A stretch of DNA of 19,792 nucleotides, from the NCBI GenBank assembly GCA_024227975.1, contig JAAETV010000804.1, forward strand, positions 1 through 19,792, given 5' to 3'. Below, piece by piece: positions 1,951 to 19,792 of this stretch; position 1 is the first letter of the stretch, and every line of letters begins with the position of its first letter. This DNA comes from Actinomycetes bacterium (lineage in GTDB: Bacteria > Actinomycetota > Acidimicrobiia > Acidimicrobiales > SZUA-35). The translations under genes were made by a program, and so were the position numbers. The notes beneath the pieces are model-generated. The model searched no databases. It saw only the letters and a program-made list of their open reading frames with translations, and was not told the DNA's origin.

Positions 1951-3573
1951 TTGGCATCGGAGGCGGCCGAGATGACCGAGGATGGCATCCGCGATCTGTA
2001 CGACGAGGATGCCGAGGCCGACGCCGCTGTTGCCGCCGCCCTGGTCCGCCAGACCGCCGATCGAGCCATGCACGCCATCCGCCGCGTCAGCGAGCTCCGG
2101 GCGGCCGGCAGTGCCCTGGCCTTCGGCCACATCACCTCGGGGGATGGATGCCTCTATATTGGTCGCCTCACGGTCATGGATGGTGACGAGCCACTACTCG
2201 TAGATTGGCGGGCCCGGGCTGCCGTGCCCTTTTACCAGGCGACACCACTGGAGCCGATGGGTGTCGACTGGCGCCGCAACTTCACCTATGGCGACGAGTC
2301 AGCAGGTACCTCCGCTGACCTGATCAGCTACTCCGATGAGTTGTTCGACGCGGACGCCGCCGCCGAGGAGATCGGGCTCAGGGGCGAAGCCGCACTGCTG
2401 GCCTCGATTACGGCGCCGACACAGGAACAGATGAGGTCGGTCGTTGCCACCATCCAGGCCGAACAGGATGCCGTCGTCCGAGCCAACGGTGATCGGCCGC
2501 TGATGGTGCAGGGTGGCCCGGGTACGGGCAAGACCGTGGTGGCGCTGCATCGGGCTGCCTACCTCCTCTACGCCCAACGGGAGGCGCTGTCGGACTCCGG
2601 AGTGCTCATCATCGGGCCGTCGTCGGAGTTCCTCATCTACATCGCTGGCGTCCTACCGTCTTTGGGGGAGACCGGTGTGGTGTCGGTGACGGCTCCTGAG
2701 CTCTACCCGGGGGTGCGACGGGGGGCGACCGAAGAAGCCGATGTGGCGGCCATCAAGGGACGGCTCGACATGGCGGCATTGCTGGCCAACGCCATCGTCG
2801 ATCGCCAGCGACGCCCCACGACTGACCTTGGTACCTGGTACGGGGCTCGACGGGTAACGTTGGAGGCGGCCAAGATCCAGGAGCTCTTCGACCTCTCCCG
2901 TCGTCACCCGACGCACAATGACGGGGCCGACTGGTTTCGTTTCGAGCTGATCGAGGCGCTCACGGCCGCGGTCTACGATCCGTCGTTCCATGATCGAGAT
3001 GAAGCCCGCAACCACTTCCGGCGCTCGGAGGCCGTTGCGGAATTCCATCTACGCCACTGGCCAACGTTGACGCCGGAGCAGGCTCTCAATGATCTGTTTG
3101 GTTCGGCCGCTCTGTTGCGCTCGGCGGCGAGGGGAACGACGCTCTGCGCCGATGAGCTGGCCCTTCTGGGTCGACCGCGACGGCCATTCATCGAGGTGGA
3201 TGACATCCACTGGTCGAACGCTGACATTCCACTCCTCGACGAGTTGCTGGCCCTGGTTGGGATTTCCCTGGCCGGTCGTGACGATGATGAACGGGCCCAG
3301 GAACGGGATGAGGCGGACGATTTCGAGGTGGCGGCGGAGATCGACCGGCGACAGGCCGAGATCGAATCCGAGCAGGACGGCAGTGACGTCGAGGGTGACC
3401 TGGCGGCCCTCGATCAACTGGCCGCAGCGGGTGGGCCCTTCGATGCCTCAGTATTGGACGACCGATTCGATCCGCCGGAAGACGTAGAGCGGGCCAAGCC
3501 CGAGTACTTCATCGAGTTGGTCGAGGAACCTGGTGACGGCTGGCCCGGGACCGGATCGGGGATGGGGAGTTGA
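1951..3573 (+). CDS. helD: HelD-like UvrD-superfamily helicase, N-terminal part (frame broken at 3' end)
   Basis: HelD/HelR proteins are ATP-driven motors that clear or recycle stalled RNA polymerase; actinobacterial members can confer rifamycin tolerance. An N-terminal coiled coil is followed by the family's YIGRLTV...LLVDWRARAAVPFYQAT block (about 69-97) and the Walker A loop GGPGTGKT (188-195). Counting is from TTG at 1951, the first usual start codon; homologous-looking sequence continues upstream, so this start is probably not native. After about residue 430 the protein becomes very acidic (DDDERAQERDEADDF and onward), matching the place where HelD proteins carry the insertion that reaches into the RNA polymerase main channel. 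The frame ends at TGA 3571-3573 before Walker B, so this product alone cannot be an ATPase. The rest of the protein follows in another frame. Confidence 0.8.
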   Translation: MASEAAEMTEDGIRDLYDEDAEADAAVAAALVRQTADRAMHAIRRVSELRAAGSALAFGHITSGDGCLYIGRLTVMDGDEPLLVDWRARAAVPFYQATPLEPMGVDWRRNFTYGDESAGTSADLISYSDELFDADAAAEEIGLRGEAALLASITAPTQEQMRSVVATIQAEQDAVVRANGDRPLMVQGGPGTGKTVVALHRAAYLLYAQREALSDSGVLIIGPSSEFLIYIAGVLPSLGETGVVSVTAPELYPGVRRGATEEADVAAIKGRLDMAALLANAIVDRQRRPTTDLGTWYGARRVTLEAAKIQELFDLSRRHPTHNDGADWFRFELIEALTAAVYDPSFHDRDEARNHFRRSEAVAEFHLRHWPTLTPEQALNDLFGSAALLRSAARGTTLCADELALLGRPRRPFIEVDDIHWSNADIPLLDELLALVGISLAGRDDDERAQERDEADDFEVAAEIDRRQAEIESEQDGSDVEGDLAALDQLAAAGGPFDASVLDDRFDPPEDVERAKPEYFIELVEEPGDGWPGTGSGMGS

Positions 3574-4418
3574 GTGACTTCTCCGACCGCCTGGTCGAGC
3601 CGACCGATGACTACGGGGCGGACCCCTTCGCCGCCAGCGAACAAGTGCAGGGCGAACAGCGCTATGTCACTGATGATGGCAGCGGCCAGCTACTGCTCGA
3701 CGCCGAGGGCAATCCCGTGTCCGAGTTGGACCTCGATCGACCGGATGAGATCGCTCAGAGGGGGGCATCGGTCCGCCAGCTCGCCGTGGATGAGCGGGTA
3801 TGGCAGTTCGGGCACGTGATCGTGGATGAGGCTCAGGACCTGACTCCGATGCAGTGGCGGATGGTCGTCCGGCGATCCCAATCGGGGGCGGTGACCATGC
3901 TCGGCGATCTGGCCCAGCGCTCGATTGGGCCTCCCGGTGGTTGGGAGGACCATCTCCCTCCAGAGTTGAGCGACTTCGAGCAGCGCAATCTGACCACCAA
4001 CTACCGATCACCAGCGGAGATCAATGAGGTGGCCTCAGCCCTGCTAGCAAGACTGGTACCGGGTCTGCCACCATCACGAGCGGTCCGCCATTCGGGCCAC
4101 CAGCCAAGGATCGTGACCGTGACGAACCTGTCCCGCGAGCTGGAGGATGTCGTCTCCGGAATCATCGAGGAGAGTGGCCACCCGCCTACCATCATCGGTT
4201 TCGATCTCCCATCGTTGCCGTCAGGGCGTCTACTGTCGCCGGTCCGGGCCAAGGGGCTCGAGTTCGATGAGGTGGTGGTCGTCGAGCCGGCCCGCTTCCT
4301 CGACGAGAGGAACGGCCTGAGCCTCCTCTACGTGGCTCTGACCAGGGCGACAGTACGCCTGACGATCGTCAACGAGCGGCCAGTGCCAGATGTGCTGAGT
4401 GCAGCATTGGATCGTTAG
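3570..4418 (+). CDS. helD: HelD-like helicase, C-terminal part (second half of split gene)
   Basis: This frame carries the remaining helicase motifs: Walker B VDEAQD (85-90), GDLAQRS (112-118), NYRSPAE (144-150), KGLEFDEV (228-235) and LYVALTRAT (253-261), as in the UvrD_C_2 region of HelD. TTG at 3570 overlaps the TGA of the first part (TTGA). GGGGAG directly abuts the TTG, which is too close for normal initiation. This frame also stays open upstream of 3570, reading A-R-D-R-I-G-D-G-E-L-S-D-F, a plausible continuation of the acidic insertion. A single missing base around 3540-3560 would restore one protein of about 850 residues. Either the gene is decaying, the assembly has an error, or two polypeptides reassemble. 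The stop lies 16 bp from the convergent PrpD-like gene. Confidence 0.75.
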   Translation: MSDFSDRLVEPTDDYGADPFAASEQVQGEQRYVTDDGSGQLLLDAEGNPVSELDLDRPDEIAQRGASVRQLAVDERVWQFGHVIVDEAQDLTPMQWRMVVRRSQSGAVTMLGDLAQRSIGPPGGWEDHLPPELSDFEQRNLTTNYRSPAEINEVASALLARLVPGLPPSRAVRHSGHQPRIVTVTNLSRELEDVVSGIIEESGHPPTIIGFDLPSLPSGRLLSPVRAKGLEFDEVVVVEPARFLDERNGLSLLYVALTRATVRLTIVNERPVPDVLSAALDR

Positions 4419-14377: not shown

Positions 14378-15346
14378 GTGGCACCGATCGGCGTTGTCGT
14401 CGCCCAACTCGGAGGACCAGAGCGTCTGGCTGACGTCGAGGGGTTCATCCGCTCGATCTTCGCTGACCCCCGCCTGGTCCCTCTCCCCGGCGGGCCGAAG
14501 ACACGGTCGGCTCTCAGTGCTCTGGTCGGCCGGGTCCGTGCCCGGCGCGTCCGCTCCCGCTACGAGGCAATTGGGGGTGGTTCGCCGATCGTGACAACCA
14601 CCCAGCATCAGGCCGACGCCCTGGCGGTGGAACTCGATGCCCGTGGTCATGATGTCGTCGTGGCCGTTGCCCATCGTCACAGCACTCCCGACACCAGCAG
14701 CGCCGTCGAGGTGTTGTTGAGGGAGGGTGTCGACCACATCATCCTGCTTCCCCTCTTCCCCCAGTACTCGGGTACGACGACCGGATCCTCCGAGGCCGAG
14801 CTGGTCCGCCTACTGTCCGAGCGACGGGCAGACGTATCACTGGATGTGATCCGATCGTGGTGCGAGCATCCCAGCTACCTCGATCAGCAAGCCCAGCTGG
14901 TCGATGACATGCTCGCTTCCATGCCCGCCCAGGACCCCAGCCAGGCCCTTGTCGTGTTCTCGGCCCACGGCCTGCCCCAGCGGATCGTTGACCGGGGCGA
15001 CCCCTATCTCGAAGAGGTCGAGGCCACGGTGGCCGGGGTCATGAAGCGGCTCGAACGGTCCGTCGACCATGTGCTGGCCTTCCAGTCGCGGGCGGGACCG
15101 GTCAAGTGGCTGGGCCCCGATGTGCGGGACGTGGTCGCCGAGGCGGCTGCCAGCGGTCGGACCTGGCTCGGCGTCGTGCCGATCTCGTTCGTCTCGGACC
15201 ACCTGGAGACCCTTCACGAGCTCGACATTGAGCTGAAGGCCCATGCGGAGGTTGCCGGTATCTACCAGTTTCATCGCTGCAAGTGCCTCGACGTAGGCTC
15301 CGGCGTCGGCCCGATGCTTGCTGACATCGTTGAGGAGTACCTGTGA
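14378..15346 (+). CDS. hemH: Ferrochelatase
   Basis: 322 residues, typical of single-domain ferrochelatases. Landmarks: VVVAQLGGPE at the N-terminus, YEAIGGGSPI (62-71), LLPLFPQYSGTT (123-134), the catalytic SAHGLP with H197, FQSRAGPVKWLGP (235-247), and the acidic SDHLETLHELD with E277. It inserts ferrous iron into protoporphyrin or coproporphyrin. C162 and the C301-x-C303 pair near the C-terminus recall the [2Fe-2S] ligands of some actinobacterial ferrochelatases, but a fourth cysteine is missing. GTG 14378 lies 4 bp after the hemN stop. The stop overlaps the hemY start (GTGA). Confidence 0.93.
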   Translation: MAPIGVVVAQLGGPERLADVEGFIRSIFADPRLVPLPGGPKTRSALSALVGRVRARRVRSRYEAIGGGSPIVTTTQHQADALAVELDARGHDVVVAVAHRHSTPDTSSAVEVLLREGVDHIILLPLFPQYSGTTTGSSEAELVRLLSERRADVSLDVIRSWCEHPSYLDQQAQLVDDMLASMPAQDPSQALVVFSAHGLPQRIVDRGDPYLEEVEATVAGVMKRLERSVDHVLAFQSRAGPVKWLGPDVRDVVAEAAASGRTWLGVVPISFVSDHLETLHELDIELKAHAEVAGIYQFHRCKCLDVGSGVGPMLADIVEEYL

Positions 15347-16744: not shown

Positions 16745-18436
16745 GTGAGCACGGAGCAATGGGACGCAATTATCATCGGCTCGGGTCCGGGTGGGCTCAC
16801 GACGGCTGCCTGCCTGGGCTCTGCCGGCAAACGGGTGTTGGTGCTGGAGCGCCACGACGTTGCCGGTGGCAACGCCCAGGTGTTTCGCCGACACCATGGG
16901 GACGACTGGTACGAGTTCGACGTCGGTGTGCACTATGTCGGTGAGTGCAGCCCAGGCGGCCTGTTCACCAGCATCTTCGACAGCCTCGGTGTCGGTGAGC
17001 GCATGCAGTTTCGTGAGCTCGATCCGGACGGCTTCGACACGCTCAGCTTCCCCGATTTCACCATCCGTGTACCCGCCAACTGGGATGAGTACGAGCGGCG
17101 CATTGTCGAGCAGTTTCCGAACGAGAGAGCGGGAATCCATCGCTGCATGACCGTGCTGCGGACGGTGGCCGAAGAGAGCCGGATGGTCTTCGGCGAGGAC
17201 CGGCCCACCCACGACGAATGGGCCATGCGGCTGTTGTCCGATCTGTTCGAGGAGAGCGAGCTGTCACAGGAGGTGTGTGCTGTAATCGACCATTGGTCCG
17301 GACTCTACGCCGGGAGCCCGGGGCAAACGGCGGTTGCCATGCACGCCGGCATCATCAGCCACTACATGAAGGGTGCCTTCTACCCTCAGGGGGGTGGCCA
17401 GATGATCCCAGCTCGGTTGATCCAGGTCATCGAAGCCTGTGGGGGAGAGGTGCGAACCCTGTCACCAGTCGACCGAATCGTCATTGAGTCTGGTCGAGCG
17501 ACAGGGGTGCGACTGGAGAGCGGTGAGGAGTTGAATGCGCCCTTGATCGTCAGCAACGCTGACTACCGGCGCACCATCAACCACATGGTTGGAGCCGAGC
17601 ATGTAGCCCCCGGAACGTCGCGCTGGGCAGAAGAAGCGATGATGACCCTCGGGTTGGTATGCGTGTACGTGGCCGTCGACAAGGTGCTGGAAGGCCCCAA
17701 CACCAACTACTTCGTCTTCCCCGACTACCGCACTGACGAGATGTACGAGGCCCTCGACGAGGGTCGGATGCCGTCAGGCGACAAGCCGTTTGCCTACATC
17801 GCCATCGCCTCCCGCAAGGACCCTGGCAACGCCGAGTTGTGTCCGCCCGGCCACACCAATTTCCAGATCATGACCCTGGCCCCCCGGGGCAATGATTATT
17901 GGGGGGTCGAGGAGGGTCCAGCCGATGGTGGCAGTTATCGGCGGAGCGATACCTATCGCCAACGCAAGCAGGAGCTGACCGAGCACTTGCTGGACGCGGC
18001 CGAGAAGGTGCTCGGTCCTTTGCGGGACAACATCGTGCACATCGAGATGGCGACGACGCTCACCCATGAGCGATACACCCATAGCACCGGAGGTACCAGC
18101 TACGGCTATCTGCACTCTCCAGAGCAGTCAGGGGAGAACCGCCCCCACTACCGCACCGAGATCGATGGCTTGTGGGTGGTGGGGGCCAACACTGTCGGGG
18201 GACACGGCATGGCTGGCGCCATGAGCGGAGGCGTCTTCTGCGCCAGTGACATCCTCGCCCGGCCCCTCATCGTCGAGATCTACACGGGCCAGCAGTTGGT
18301 CGATGCGGCGAGGATCCCTCCAGACCCCGAAGACTTCGATCCTCTCGAGTACTGCCGGGGCGAGAAGCTACGGGCAAAGCGCTCGGCCCGGGTGGAGTCA
18401 TTGCGCCAGCGGCGCCGCGAAGGTGATTCCACCTGA
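16745..18436 (+). CDS. FAD-dependent oxidoreductase of the phytoene desaturase / CrtISO / RetSat type
   Basis: 563 residues. The FAD motif is DAIIIGSGPGGLTTAACL (7-24), followed by LERHDVAGGNAQVF and YEFDVGVHYVGE, which matches the carotenoid-isomerase/retinol-saturase pattern. GALY-type middle segments and the C-terminal GLWVVGANTVGGHGMAGAMSGG (FAD capping) are present. The last 40 or so residues are highly charged (KLRAKRSARVESLRQRRR). GTG 16745 has AAAGGATG upstream, and the gene is 19 bp from hemY, so it may be the last gene of the heme unit. No other carotenoid genes are in the window, so a carotenoid substrate is not supported; a polyene or isoprenoid redox or isomerase role is the most that can be said. 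Confidence 0.82.
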   Translation: MSTEQWDAIIIGSGPGGLTTAACLGSAGKRVLVLERHDVAGGNAQVFRRHHGDDWYEFDVGVHYVGECSPGGLFTSIFDSLGVGERMQFRELDPDGFDTLSFPDFTIRVPANWDEYERRIVEQFPNERAGIHRCMTVLRTVAEESRMVFGEDRPTHDEWAMRLLSDLFEESELSQEVCAVIDHWSGLYAGSPGQTAVAMHAGIISHYMKGAFYPQGGGQMIPARLIQVIEACGGEVRTLSPVDRIVIESGRATGVRLESGEELNAPLIVSNADYRRTINHMVGAEHVAPGTSRWAEEAMMTLGLVCVYVAVDKVLEGPNTNYFVFPDYRTDEMYEALDEGRMPSGDKPFAYIAIASRKDPGNAELCPPGHTNFQIMTLAPRGNDYWGVEEGPADGGSYRRSDTYRQRKQELTEHLLDAAEKVLGPLRDNIVHIEMATTLTHERYTHSTGGTSYGYLHSPEQSGENRPHYRTEIDGLWVVGANTVGGHGMAGAMSGGVFCASDILARPLIVEIYTGQQLVDAARIPPDPEDFDPLEYCRGEKLRAKRSARVESLRQRRREGDST

Positions 18437-18445
18437 AGCAGTCCG

Positions 18446-18467
18446 GGTCAGCTATGGGGTGCTGATC
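18446..18467. terminator. Possible hairpin between convergent genes
   Basis: GGTCAGC (18446-18452) pairs with GCTGATC (18461-18467) through one G-T wobble around an eight-base loop. It lies in the 75-bp convergent gap. A wider dyad, TCGACAC (18472-18478) with GTGTCGA (18504-18510), is also present but has a 25-base loop. Neither has a T-tract. Confidence 0.3.
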
Positions 18468-18511
18468 ACCATCGACACTGGGATGGGTCAGGGGGGACAA
18501 CGGGTGTCGAA

Positions 18512-19495
18512 TCAGCGCGACTCGGCCAGCTCCTGCAGAGCCCGGCCTACGTAGACCGATGCCATCCACTTGCGGTACCGGGAACCGAGATCGGCGTTGT
18601 CCTGAGGTCTGACGATCTTGGCCGCTGCCTGGGCTGCCTCATCAATGATGCCCGGGCTCAGCTCCTCGCCCTCCAGGAGCCTTTCGGCCTCGGTCGCCCT
18701 CAGTGGGGCCGGGGCGATGGCGCCAATCACGATGCGGGGATCATGAGCCGCACCCGATCCATCGACACCCAATGATGCGGCCACCCCCAGGATCGGGAAG
18801 TCGATCGATCCACGTCGCCTGAGCTTGTGGTAGGTGGCCTGGCGGCCGGTCGCCGGGGGGATGCTCAGCTCGACGATGATCTCACTGGACTCCTTGGTGA
18901 GGTATTCGATGCCGTCGTCGTTCCAGAGGTCGGCTACCGGGATGGTCCGCTCGCCCTGGCTGCTGGCCAAGCGAACCGAGGCGTCGAGGGCTATGGCCAC
19001 CGGAACCAGGTCCGACGAGCAGATGGCCCAGCACCGGTCACCCCGGGGAGCCACCCAGCAGGTATCACCACCGTCCTTCAGGCACGGGCCGCTGGCCTCG
19101 CGCCACAGCTCCGGCATGTCGAAGTAGTTGCACCTCGTGTCGAGGCAGAGGTTTCCCCCAACCGTTGCCATGTTGCGGATCTGGGGTGACGCCACCGCTC
19201 CGGCGGCAGTGGCCAGGGCGGAGGGAGCCTGTGATGATCTCTCGAGCTCGGCCAGCGGCGTGGCCGCACCGATGACTACGGTGCCGTCGTCGCCGACCCG
19301 GATTCCCGTGAGGGCGTCGATGGCGCTCAGCGACACGATCGTGCCCGCTGCGATCTGTCGGCGTTTCATGGCCGGGAGCAGGTCGGTGCCACCGCCGAGC
19401 ACGACCGCGGTCGGGCCGATCTCGTCGAGCAGTCGGGTTGCGTCGCCCACGGTCTCGGGCCGCAAGTAGTCGAATGAGGGCAGTGACAATGTCAT
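18512..19495 (-). CDS. FAD subunit of xanthine-oxidase-family molybdenum enzyme, 4-hydroxybenzoyl-CoA reductase beta (HcrB)-like
   Basis: 327 residues. The FAD-binding molybdopterin-dehydrogenase domain is seen in VVLGGGTDLLPAMKRR (31-46), IGAATPLAELE (75-85), SPQIRNMATVGGNL (103-116) and ICSSDLVPVAIALDA. Between TVGGNL and ICSSD is a Cys-rich insertion: C117, C122, C138, C146, C155, C159. This is the insertion that carries the extra [4Fe-4S] cluster in 4-hydroxybenzoyl-CoA reductase. C122, C138, C146 and C155 fall at the same numbers I recall for the Thauera ligands. Ordinary xanthine or CO dehydrogenase medium subunits lack it. The start is the last of five ATGs in a tandem repeat; it has no Shine-Dalgarno sequence, so translation probably depends on coupling. 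Function is likely removal of a phenolic hydroxyl or a related aromatic acyl-CoA reaction. Confidence 0.85.
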   Translation of the reverse strand: MTLSLPSFDYLRPETVGDATRLLDEIGPTAVVLGGGTDLLPAMKRRQIAAGTIVSLSAIDALTGIRVGDDGTVVIGAATPLAELERSSQAPSALATAAGAVASPQIRNMATVGGNLCLDTRCNYFDMPELWREASGPCLKDGGDTCWVAPRGDRCWAICSSDLVPVAIALDASVRLASSQGERTIPVADLWNDDGIEYLTKESSEIIVELSIPPATGRQATYHKLRRRGSIDFPILGVAASLGVDGSGAAHDPRIVIGAIAPAPLRATEAERLLEGEELSPGIIDEAAQAAAKIVRPQDNADLGSRYRKWMASVYVGRALQELAESR

Positions 19496-19559
19496 GGAGA
19501 ACCTGTCATGGAGAACCTGTCATGGAGAACCTGTCATGGAGAACCTGTCATGGAGGACC
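19490..19559 (-). repeat. 14-bp tandem repeat (five copies) carrying overlapping stop/start codons
   Basis: On the minus strand the unit is GGTTCTCCATGACA; the first copy differs at one base (GGTCCTCCATGACA). Copy one includes the end of the large-subunit gene (GGT CCT CCA TGA) and an ATG overlapping that stop. ATGs at 19551, 19537, 19523 and 19509 each read MTGSP and stop at a TGA that overlaps the next ATG. The fifth ATG (19495) starts the FAD subunit. The array therefore keeps coupling intact whatever its copy number. Confidence 0.95.
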
Positions 19560-19792
19560 GAATCCTTCTGGTGGCTCGACCGGCCACGGGGTACCGAAAT
19601 CGAACTCGGGCAGATCGGTGGGGCCGACCCGACCCGGCCCACCGCGGGCGGCGTTTCGCATGGCGGCCACGATCTTGTCGGGAGTAATCGGTACTTCGTC
19701 GATCCGTATGCCGAGGGCGTCGTGGATGGCGTTGGCTACCGCCGGAATCACCGGCAGGAGGGGACCTTGGCCTACCTCTTTGGCCCCGAACG
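19548..19792 (-). CDS. C-terminus of xanthine-oxidase-family molybdenum-binding subunit (HcrA/XdhA-like), 5' end outside window
   Basis: About 81 residues remain. They read FGAKEVGQGPLLPVIPAVAN and then AIHDALGIRIDEVPITPDKI, the standard end of the molybdopterin-binding large subunit, in which the Glu of GAKEVGQGP is the conserved catalytic base. A 20-residue or so tail rich in Pro and Gly follows (LPEFDFGTPWPVEPPEGFGPP). The TGA overlaps the first ATG of the 14-bp repeat array. Order large subunit then FAD subunit; a small [2Fe-2S] subunit would be expected nearby outside the window. Confidence 0.85.
   Translation of the reverse strand, partial: FGAKEVGQGPLLPVIPAVANAIHDALGIRIDEVPITPDKIVAAMRNAARGGPGRVGPTDLPEFDFGTPWPVEPPEGFGPP

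Follow-up and report, generated by a model that had tools for sequence, protein, structure and literature searches.

We found that the junction between two subunit genes in an Acidimicrobiia genome is repeated in tandem, and that comparable arrays recur at gene junctions across the class. On the minus strand of the window (the whole 19,792-nt stretch of DNA analysed here), positions 19559-19490 consist of five head-to-tail 14-bp units, each of which contains an ATGA. We refer to such an array as a ladder and to each of its ATGAs as a rung. The ladders found at gene junctions show a bias towards unit lengths of 3n+2 bp, and copy number differs between species. We consider it probable that they represent tandemly expanded translational-coupling junctions, in which slippage duplicates a 4-nt gene overlap and units of 3n+2 bp keep the stop/start relay intact.

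The junction of the large and FAD subunit genes

The features of the junction, in the direction of transcription, are as follows.

19548..19792, minus strand: 3' end of the large (molybdopterin-binding) subunit gene, as assigned by its place, cut by the window edge (translation)
19563..19567, minus strand: AAGGA, Shine-Dalgarno (SD)-like, in the PEGF codons, 11 nt 5' of the first ATG (sequence)
19490..19559, minus strand: array of five 14-bp units, GGT(C/T)CTCCATGACA (sequence, TRF, translation)
19534..19551, minus strand: minicistron 1, MTGSP (translation)
19520..19537, minus strand: minicistron 2, MTGSP (translation)
19506..19523, minus strand: minicistron 3, MTGSP (translation)
19492..19509, minus strand: minicistron 4, MTGSP, with its TGA inside the FAD-gene ATGA (translation)
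19502..19505, minus strand: CAGG, weakly SD-like, 6 nt 5' of the FAD-subunit ATG (sequence)
18512..19495, minus strand: gene for the FAD-binding subunit of a molybdopterin dehydrogenase-family enzyme, 327 aa (PF00941, PF03450)

Copy 1 of the array is GGTCCTCCATGACA and copies 2-5 are GGTTCTCCATGACA, a difference of one base. The TRF score of the array was 133, and that of the runner-up repeat in the window was 53. The large subunit ends in ...VEPPEGFGPP, and its TGA falls in the first ATGA. The minicistron ATGs are located at 19551, 19537, 19523 and 19509; each reads ATG ACA GGT TCT CCA TGA (MTGSP), the TGA sitting within the following ATGA, and the fifth ATGA supplies the ATG of the FAD subunit at 19495. 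An earlier note on this DNA had claimed five tandem stop/start copies, four MTGSP minicistrons between the two subunit genes and a single base separating the repeated unit from the end of the large-subunit gene. Sequence, TRF and translation bore out the first two claims, and the comparison of copy 1 with the unit agreed with the third. A strain with 99% identity, P0002, is represented by a 2459-bp contig.

From the stop of the large subunit to the start of the FAD subunit, the distance is 52 nt. The arrangement typical of -4 nt overlaps, in which the upstream stop and the next start share one ATGA, is found at the window junction, as is every element of a strictly defined ladder (at least four ATGAs at 3n+2 spacing, a gene stop in the first rung and a gene start at the last). 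Since a stop and a start are present in every copy, whole-unit changes leave the large and FAD proteins unaffected, and copy number in the window array does not switch a frame on or off in the manner of a phase-variable simple repeat.

The gene upstream of the array is regarded as that of the large subunit from its position before the FAD subunit and from the earlier note; in close relatives, a PPEGF-type C-terminus likewise precedes the FAD gene. The best NCBIfam model for the FAD subunit was 4-hydroxybenzoyl-CoA reductase beta, at 250.9 bits, under the cut-off of 404.55, and the assignment that the protein supports is to the wider FAD-subunit family. Within the family of the closest relative, one genome out of 39, that relative's own (G001), had the FAD gene at E <= 1e-70, and the enzyme is therefore patchily distributed.

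Two further overlaps were observed on the plus strand of the window. At 1951-4418, a helicase-like protein (by reading) is apparently split into two ORFs (540 and 282 aa) with four bases, TTGA, in common at 3570-3573, which could be a natural split or a frameshift. At 15343-15346, ferrochelatase-like and protoporphyrinogen-oxidase-like ORFs (by reading) share a 4-nt GTGA overlap, present as a single copy without a ladder.

To place the array in context, the same junction was collected from relatives. Scanning genome contigs gave 19 loci. Among 395 genomes of the class, 24 contained the FAD gene at a threshold of E <= 1e-90, and several of these loci had already appeared in the first scan. After removal of duplicates, 29 loci had enough upstream sequence; L017 and L018 were too short upstream. 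Aligned across these relatives, as the earlier note had suggested, the junction has five rungs in the window, three diverged rungs in L001 and no ladder in the 28 others, so that extra in-chain ATGAs outside the window were confined to L001. This locus is the closest relative, with 76% protein identity, and its ladder occupies the same position (ATGACGAGGTTCGCC ATGAGGGGTGCCCC ATGACC). Its first spacer approximates the window unit with one inserted base and one substitution, and its first ATG encodes MTRFAMRGAP, with a stop in the third ATGA. The ladder may predate the split of the window and L001 lineages and have re-expanded in that of the window, or ladders may have originated twice at one place.

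A script called a -4 or -1 overlap in 24 of the 28 ladder-free relatives; at L005, L016, L019 and L034 it chose another upstream stop, and L005 nonetheless shows an ATGA overlap. The absence of a ladder from 28 of 29 relatives supports the proposal of the earlier note that the unit was copied from the junction itself. The genome of the closest relative, G001, contains two more 14-bp ladders (L059 and L069), before kynureninase-like and thiolase genes, and neither array contains an upstream gene stop by the composition check.

Ladders across the Acidimicrobiia

Of 395 Acidimicrobiia genomes, 45 contained four ATGAs at exact 14-bp spacing. Matches to the reversed control pattern were present in 26 of them all (count from the scan table), so abundance is no argument and proves little. 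Tandem repeats of 14-bp spacing are common in general, which we counted against our best explanation. In a phylum sample, four of 208 genomes matched, one being G001 again.

We assembled a test set of 53 distinct 14-bp arrays, all outside a flag for heptamer repeats; the class contributed 49, the phylum sample three and the window one. The class arrays were taken from among the matches listed, for part of which the place was fetched, with most heptamer arrays left out. The flag removed six heptamer arrays but missed a seventh, L092, which is among the 49. The palindromic arrays L082 and L089 were counted on both strands, and at least one 15-bp place is without a locus. The 14-bp arrays came from all 395 genomes and those of 11, 13, 15, 16 and 17 bp from 188 of these; per-array rates are therefore comparable, and abundances are not.

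In 37 of the 53 14-bp arrays, stops and starts formed a complete chain linking an upstream with a downstream ORF; the other 16 failed. Other 3n+2 units behaved similarly (3/4 at 11 bp, 7/8 at 17 bp), against 1/4 at 13 bp, 2/26 at 15 bp and 1/5 at 16 bp. The chain test is lenient, because it admitted every 70-codon open frame and allowed starts at TTG or GTG; the chosen upstream frame had a negative coding score in 10 of the 37 passers, two of which (L056 and L081) were confirmed by Pfam.

A stricter test was applied to class arrays only, in which a gene had to span 100 codons or more and show the codon composition typical of this GC-rich DNA. Among arrays with 3n+2 units (11, 14 and 17 bp), 30 of 61 had a gene start at the last rung, against one of 35 among those with other units (13, 15 and 16 bp; p = 8e-7), and a gene stop fell in the first rung in 19/61 against 2/35 (p = 0.004). 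Both occurred together in 12/61 against 1/35 (p = 0.03), and in 22/61 against 1/35 (p = 1e-4) when the upstream stop was allowed up to 40 nt before the array. Isolated ATGAs in the loci, a count that includes some overlapping loci, coincided with a gene stop in 16 of 988 cases and with a gene start in 161 of 988. The comparison set consists mainly of 15-bp arrays (26/35), many of which are probably in-frame coding repeats, which leaves nine arrays of 13 and 16 bp as the basis of the frame rule against those lengths. No 14-bp array had a gene start at its first rung or a gene stop at its last; the first half of this result is automatic for 3n+2 units and was left unused. As junction arrays are mostly of 3n+2 units, the frame-preserving relay claimed in the earlier note is supported.

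Pfam families were assigned to 38 of the 40 proteins flanking 20 ladders, which were chosen among chain-test passers rather than at random. The following pairs, all from Pfam, are named by our reading of the families; L089 and L105 come from further Pfam scans beyond these 20 ladders.

L049: obg-proB
L050: ftsW-murG
L056: tmk-holB (DNA polymerase III delta')
L070: molybdopterin-binding subunit-XdhC
L071: cmk-acyltransferase
L072: lysC-asd
L076: alanine racemase-hydrolase
L080: ABC ATPase-protein without assignment
L081: methylmalonyl-CoA mutase-B12-binding domain
L089: def-fmt
L105: gatA-gatB, with 17-bp units

Some ladder pairs are partners in a complex or pathway, and others are not. At L049, L055, L064, L067 and L089, among others, the upstream stop lies in an NTGA shortly before the regular array begins, the distance being spanned by an irregular minicistron.

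Several related repeats were observed alongside these ladders. Locus L208 (G206 C332) is a 14-bp ladder of six successive GTGA units followed by an ATGA, before a 286-codon ORF; ladders are therefore not restricted to ATG, and ATGA patterns undercount them. Seven-base tandem repeats containing ATGA (ATGACCG, ATGAGCC, ATGAGCA and others; L090-L096) occur in a number of Acidimicrobiia genomes, and one of the six heptamer arrays that were fetched and flagged passed the chain test. Two contigs of G206 (C132 and C174; L216 and L217) terminate within arrays of one 14-bp unit, and ladders can therefore break assembly; copy numbers at such places may be lower bounds.

Origin of the ladders and competing readings

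The unit sequence varies between loci, and several units are like the end of the upstream gene or the start of the downstream gene. At L048, L056 and L074, the first-unit spacer is a repeat of the upstream gene's last ten bases. The units thus look like local duplications and not like a mobile family. Copy number also differs between related genomes. Loci L107 and L108 precede the same penicillin-binding protein gene, in two genomes that are 95% identical over the downstream 1.5 kb, and have one and five units of 17 bp; the difference of 68 bp is exactly four units. Loci L073 and L206 (83-86% identical) have six and three units of 14 bp, with a length difference of 57 bp, which is not a whole number of units, and one L206 rung reads ACGA. 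The copy-number change anticipated in the earlier note was thus seen as interspecies differences at two other ladders of the class.

We propose the following model of a tandemly expanded coupling junction. The ancestor would have had a single 4-nt ATGA overlap between the large and FAD subunit genes, and slipped-strand duplication of a 14-bp piece across this overlap would have generated the five ATGA rungs. The ATG of each rung reads into the TGA of the next because 14 is 3n+2. A ribosome finishing the large subunit would terminate and reinitiate through four 5-codon minicistrons until it reached the FAD start, with no untranslated gap. Were the rungs not present, the same 52 nt would form a gap at which, according to one set of reporter assays, coupling would be all but abolished: at a stop-start spacing of +38 nt, coupling was reduced by 80-90% or abolished for three gene pairs of E. 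coli (PMC10666635). The matter is disputed: that paper also cites reporter work in which coupling was found over distances of 73 nt and upwards, and a gap of 52 nt might therefore be bridged even with no rungs in it. The relay would make copy-number change survivable, since whole-unit changes would leave both proteins and the chain intact, and every added rung should alter, and probably lower, the ratio of downstream to upstream protein. The arrangement of the sequence, its recurrence at gene junctions, the 3n+2 bias and the interspecies differences in copy number are observed; slippage, ribosome traffic over the rungs, the loss of ribosomes at each rung and any dosage effect are inferred.

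A neutral reading, to which we give slightly less than an even chance, is that the ladders are slippage debris: only harmless junction repeats survive, and the relay, a by-product of the overlap, has no bearing on dosage. This would account for locus-specific units that resemble the flanking genes, and so arose locally, as well as for copy number that varies between related genomes, and the 3n+2 bias could be purely permissive. We counted broken rungs in 11 array-rich genomes, using a scan that allowed up to two mismatches. Breakage affected 16 of 166 rungs that stand at the head of a repeat unit, against 36.7 (sd 4.7) when rungs were simulated to drift like spacers under the same filter, in a crude simulation that assumes a star phylogeny and with some counted units being array edges. 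This low breakage is a hint that selection may have kept the relay working, as is the persistence of a diverged ladder in L001, and both speak against debris. The neutral reading regains ground from the finding that rungs are kept equally in junction arrays (2/42 broken) and unplaced arrays (6/100; p = 1), a group that includes true junction arrays missed by the criterion, such as L055 and L064. The four identical window units look recent, which we counted against long-term function at this locus.

We are doubtful, without dismissing it, that copy number is a selected stepwise dial on the ratio of downstream to upstream protein. Such adaptive tuning would fit the several pairs that are partners in a complex or pathway, namely gatA-gatB, def-fmt, lysC-asd and methylmalonyl-CoA mutase-B12, and the unequal copy numbers of orthologous ladders, but no partnership is evident in cmk-acyltransferase, alanine racemase-hydrolase, obg-proB or methionine synthase-hydrolase.

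The array might instead recruit ribosomes directly. The earlier note had stated that none of the ATGs has a Shine-Dalgarno sequence, which is partly right: the first ATG is preceded by AAGGA, whilst ATGs 2-5 have a weak CAGG 6 nt upstream, with weak anti-SD pairing of -3.7 kcal/mol. In five aligned relatives with a single overlap, GARGG stands at the AAGGA position, ahead of the FAD gene's own start, and the insertion has therefore displaced the FAD start from the ancestral SD. That ancestral site now stands before minicistron 1, away from the FAD start. An SD aids coupling at overlaps but is not essential for it (PMC6728339).

The idea that de novo initiation takes place at the FAD start, each CAGG making the array a multi-site landing pad and coupling irrelevant, appears unlikely. 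It draws on the CAGG ahead of rungs 2-5, on the stronger SD matches of L001 rungs 2 and 3 (-6.8 and -7.9 kcal/mol) and on a junction RNA that was less stably folded than 200 of 200 shuffles (z +2.4). The window SD match is weak, the 3n+2 spacing would be unnecessary for such a pad, and in 52 arrays the SD match of the ladder units was not above that of shuffled spacers (p = 0.92). For the latter reason, we dropped the notion that each unit is a complete ribosome-binding module, and RNA structure as a functional element was rejected as the junction folds more weakly than its shuffles. The earlier note had held that a promoter for the FAD gene within the array would make coupling irrelevant; when 18400-19792 was scanned for sigma-70-type sites, nothing resembling a promoter or a terminator was found, within the array or around it.

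It is very unlikely that an assembly artefact multiplied one 14-bp copy. The source is probably a metagenome assembly, which would allow such an error, but the independent genome of L001 has a diverged ladder at the same position, arrays occur on long contigs (G262 C1, 1.6 Mb; G422 C9, 0.7 Mb; G551 C1, at least 9.2 Mb), and spacers differ among copies in 19 of 25 arrays, unlike a simple expansion error. Least probable of all is that the MTGSP peptide or the DNA repeat is itself the product, acting as a signalling peptide or as an array for protein binding, as four identical ORFs might suggest: unit and peptide differ in 24 other arrays, L001 would make MTRFAMRGAP, and by eye no common motif beyond ATGA was noticed.

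Known systems and significance

The mycobacterial interspersed repetitive units (MIRU) measure 46-101 bp, and MIRU-VNTR loci consist of tandem copies in variable number. We regard MIRU as the closest precedent for an expanded coupling junction, the likeness being a repeat-borne ORF that overlaps its neighbour gene by 4 nt, as is found in the window. The two differ in that MIRU is a mobile, dispersed family, whereas the unit sequences of the class ladders differ from locus to locus, and in unit length, which is 14 bp in the window and 11-17 bp across the class ladders. The short ORF of MIRU lies in a 4-nt overlap with the gene at its insertion site, at little expression cost (Supply et al. 1997, cited in PMC12548453).

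At -4 overlaps, one ribosome terminates and restarts, and such overlaps are enriched between the subunits of complexes (Huber et al. 2019 PMC6728339; Huber et al. 2023 PMC10666635). The ATGA is common to these pairs and to the ladders; in those papers it is described for one junction between two genes, whereas the ladders add two to eight rungs as a chain of minicistrons. In the bicistronic designs treated in PMC12548453, a short ORF just delivers the ribosome to the next start, as the ladder minicistrons would, but there is one short upstream ORF in the designs as set out there, whereas the ladder is serial and lies between two genes. The constant-length, variable-sequence repeats of Bacillus (PMC8161180) resemble the ladders in having a fixed unit length and a locus-specific sequence. 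Their units measure 52 or 20-21 nt, and the available part of PMC8161180 draws no link to stop/start junctions. Tandem ATGA ladders were not described in the titles and abstract openings that made up the literature searched, a scope in which subscription journals were mostly not included.

We speculate, tentatively, that the Acidimicrobiia possess evolvable translational dials throughout the genome, in the form of ladders of 4-6-codon minicistrons that arise by slippage at 4-nt overlaps and whose copy number grades the output ratio of adjacent genes whilst the proteins stay unmutated. If this reading were true, it would extend to the essential pairs gatA-gatB, def-fmt and ftsW-murG. The ladders also bear on the disputed question of how ribosomes pass between cistrons, by scanning or by a strictly local restart, as they offer a natural, countable series. 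Where minicistrons alone span the 52 nt, local restart predicts that each rung matters and that output drops with copy number, whereas long-range scanning predicts little effect of copy number. That ladders turn up repeatedly at pairs of housekeeping genes, for the most part with 3n+2 units, points to a stop/start relay as a limit on the insertions tolerated at coupled junctions, and a ladder may also provide these bacteria with a mutable, frame-safe route to altered subunit ratios.
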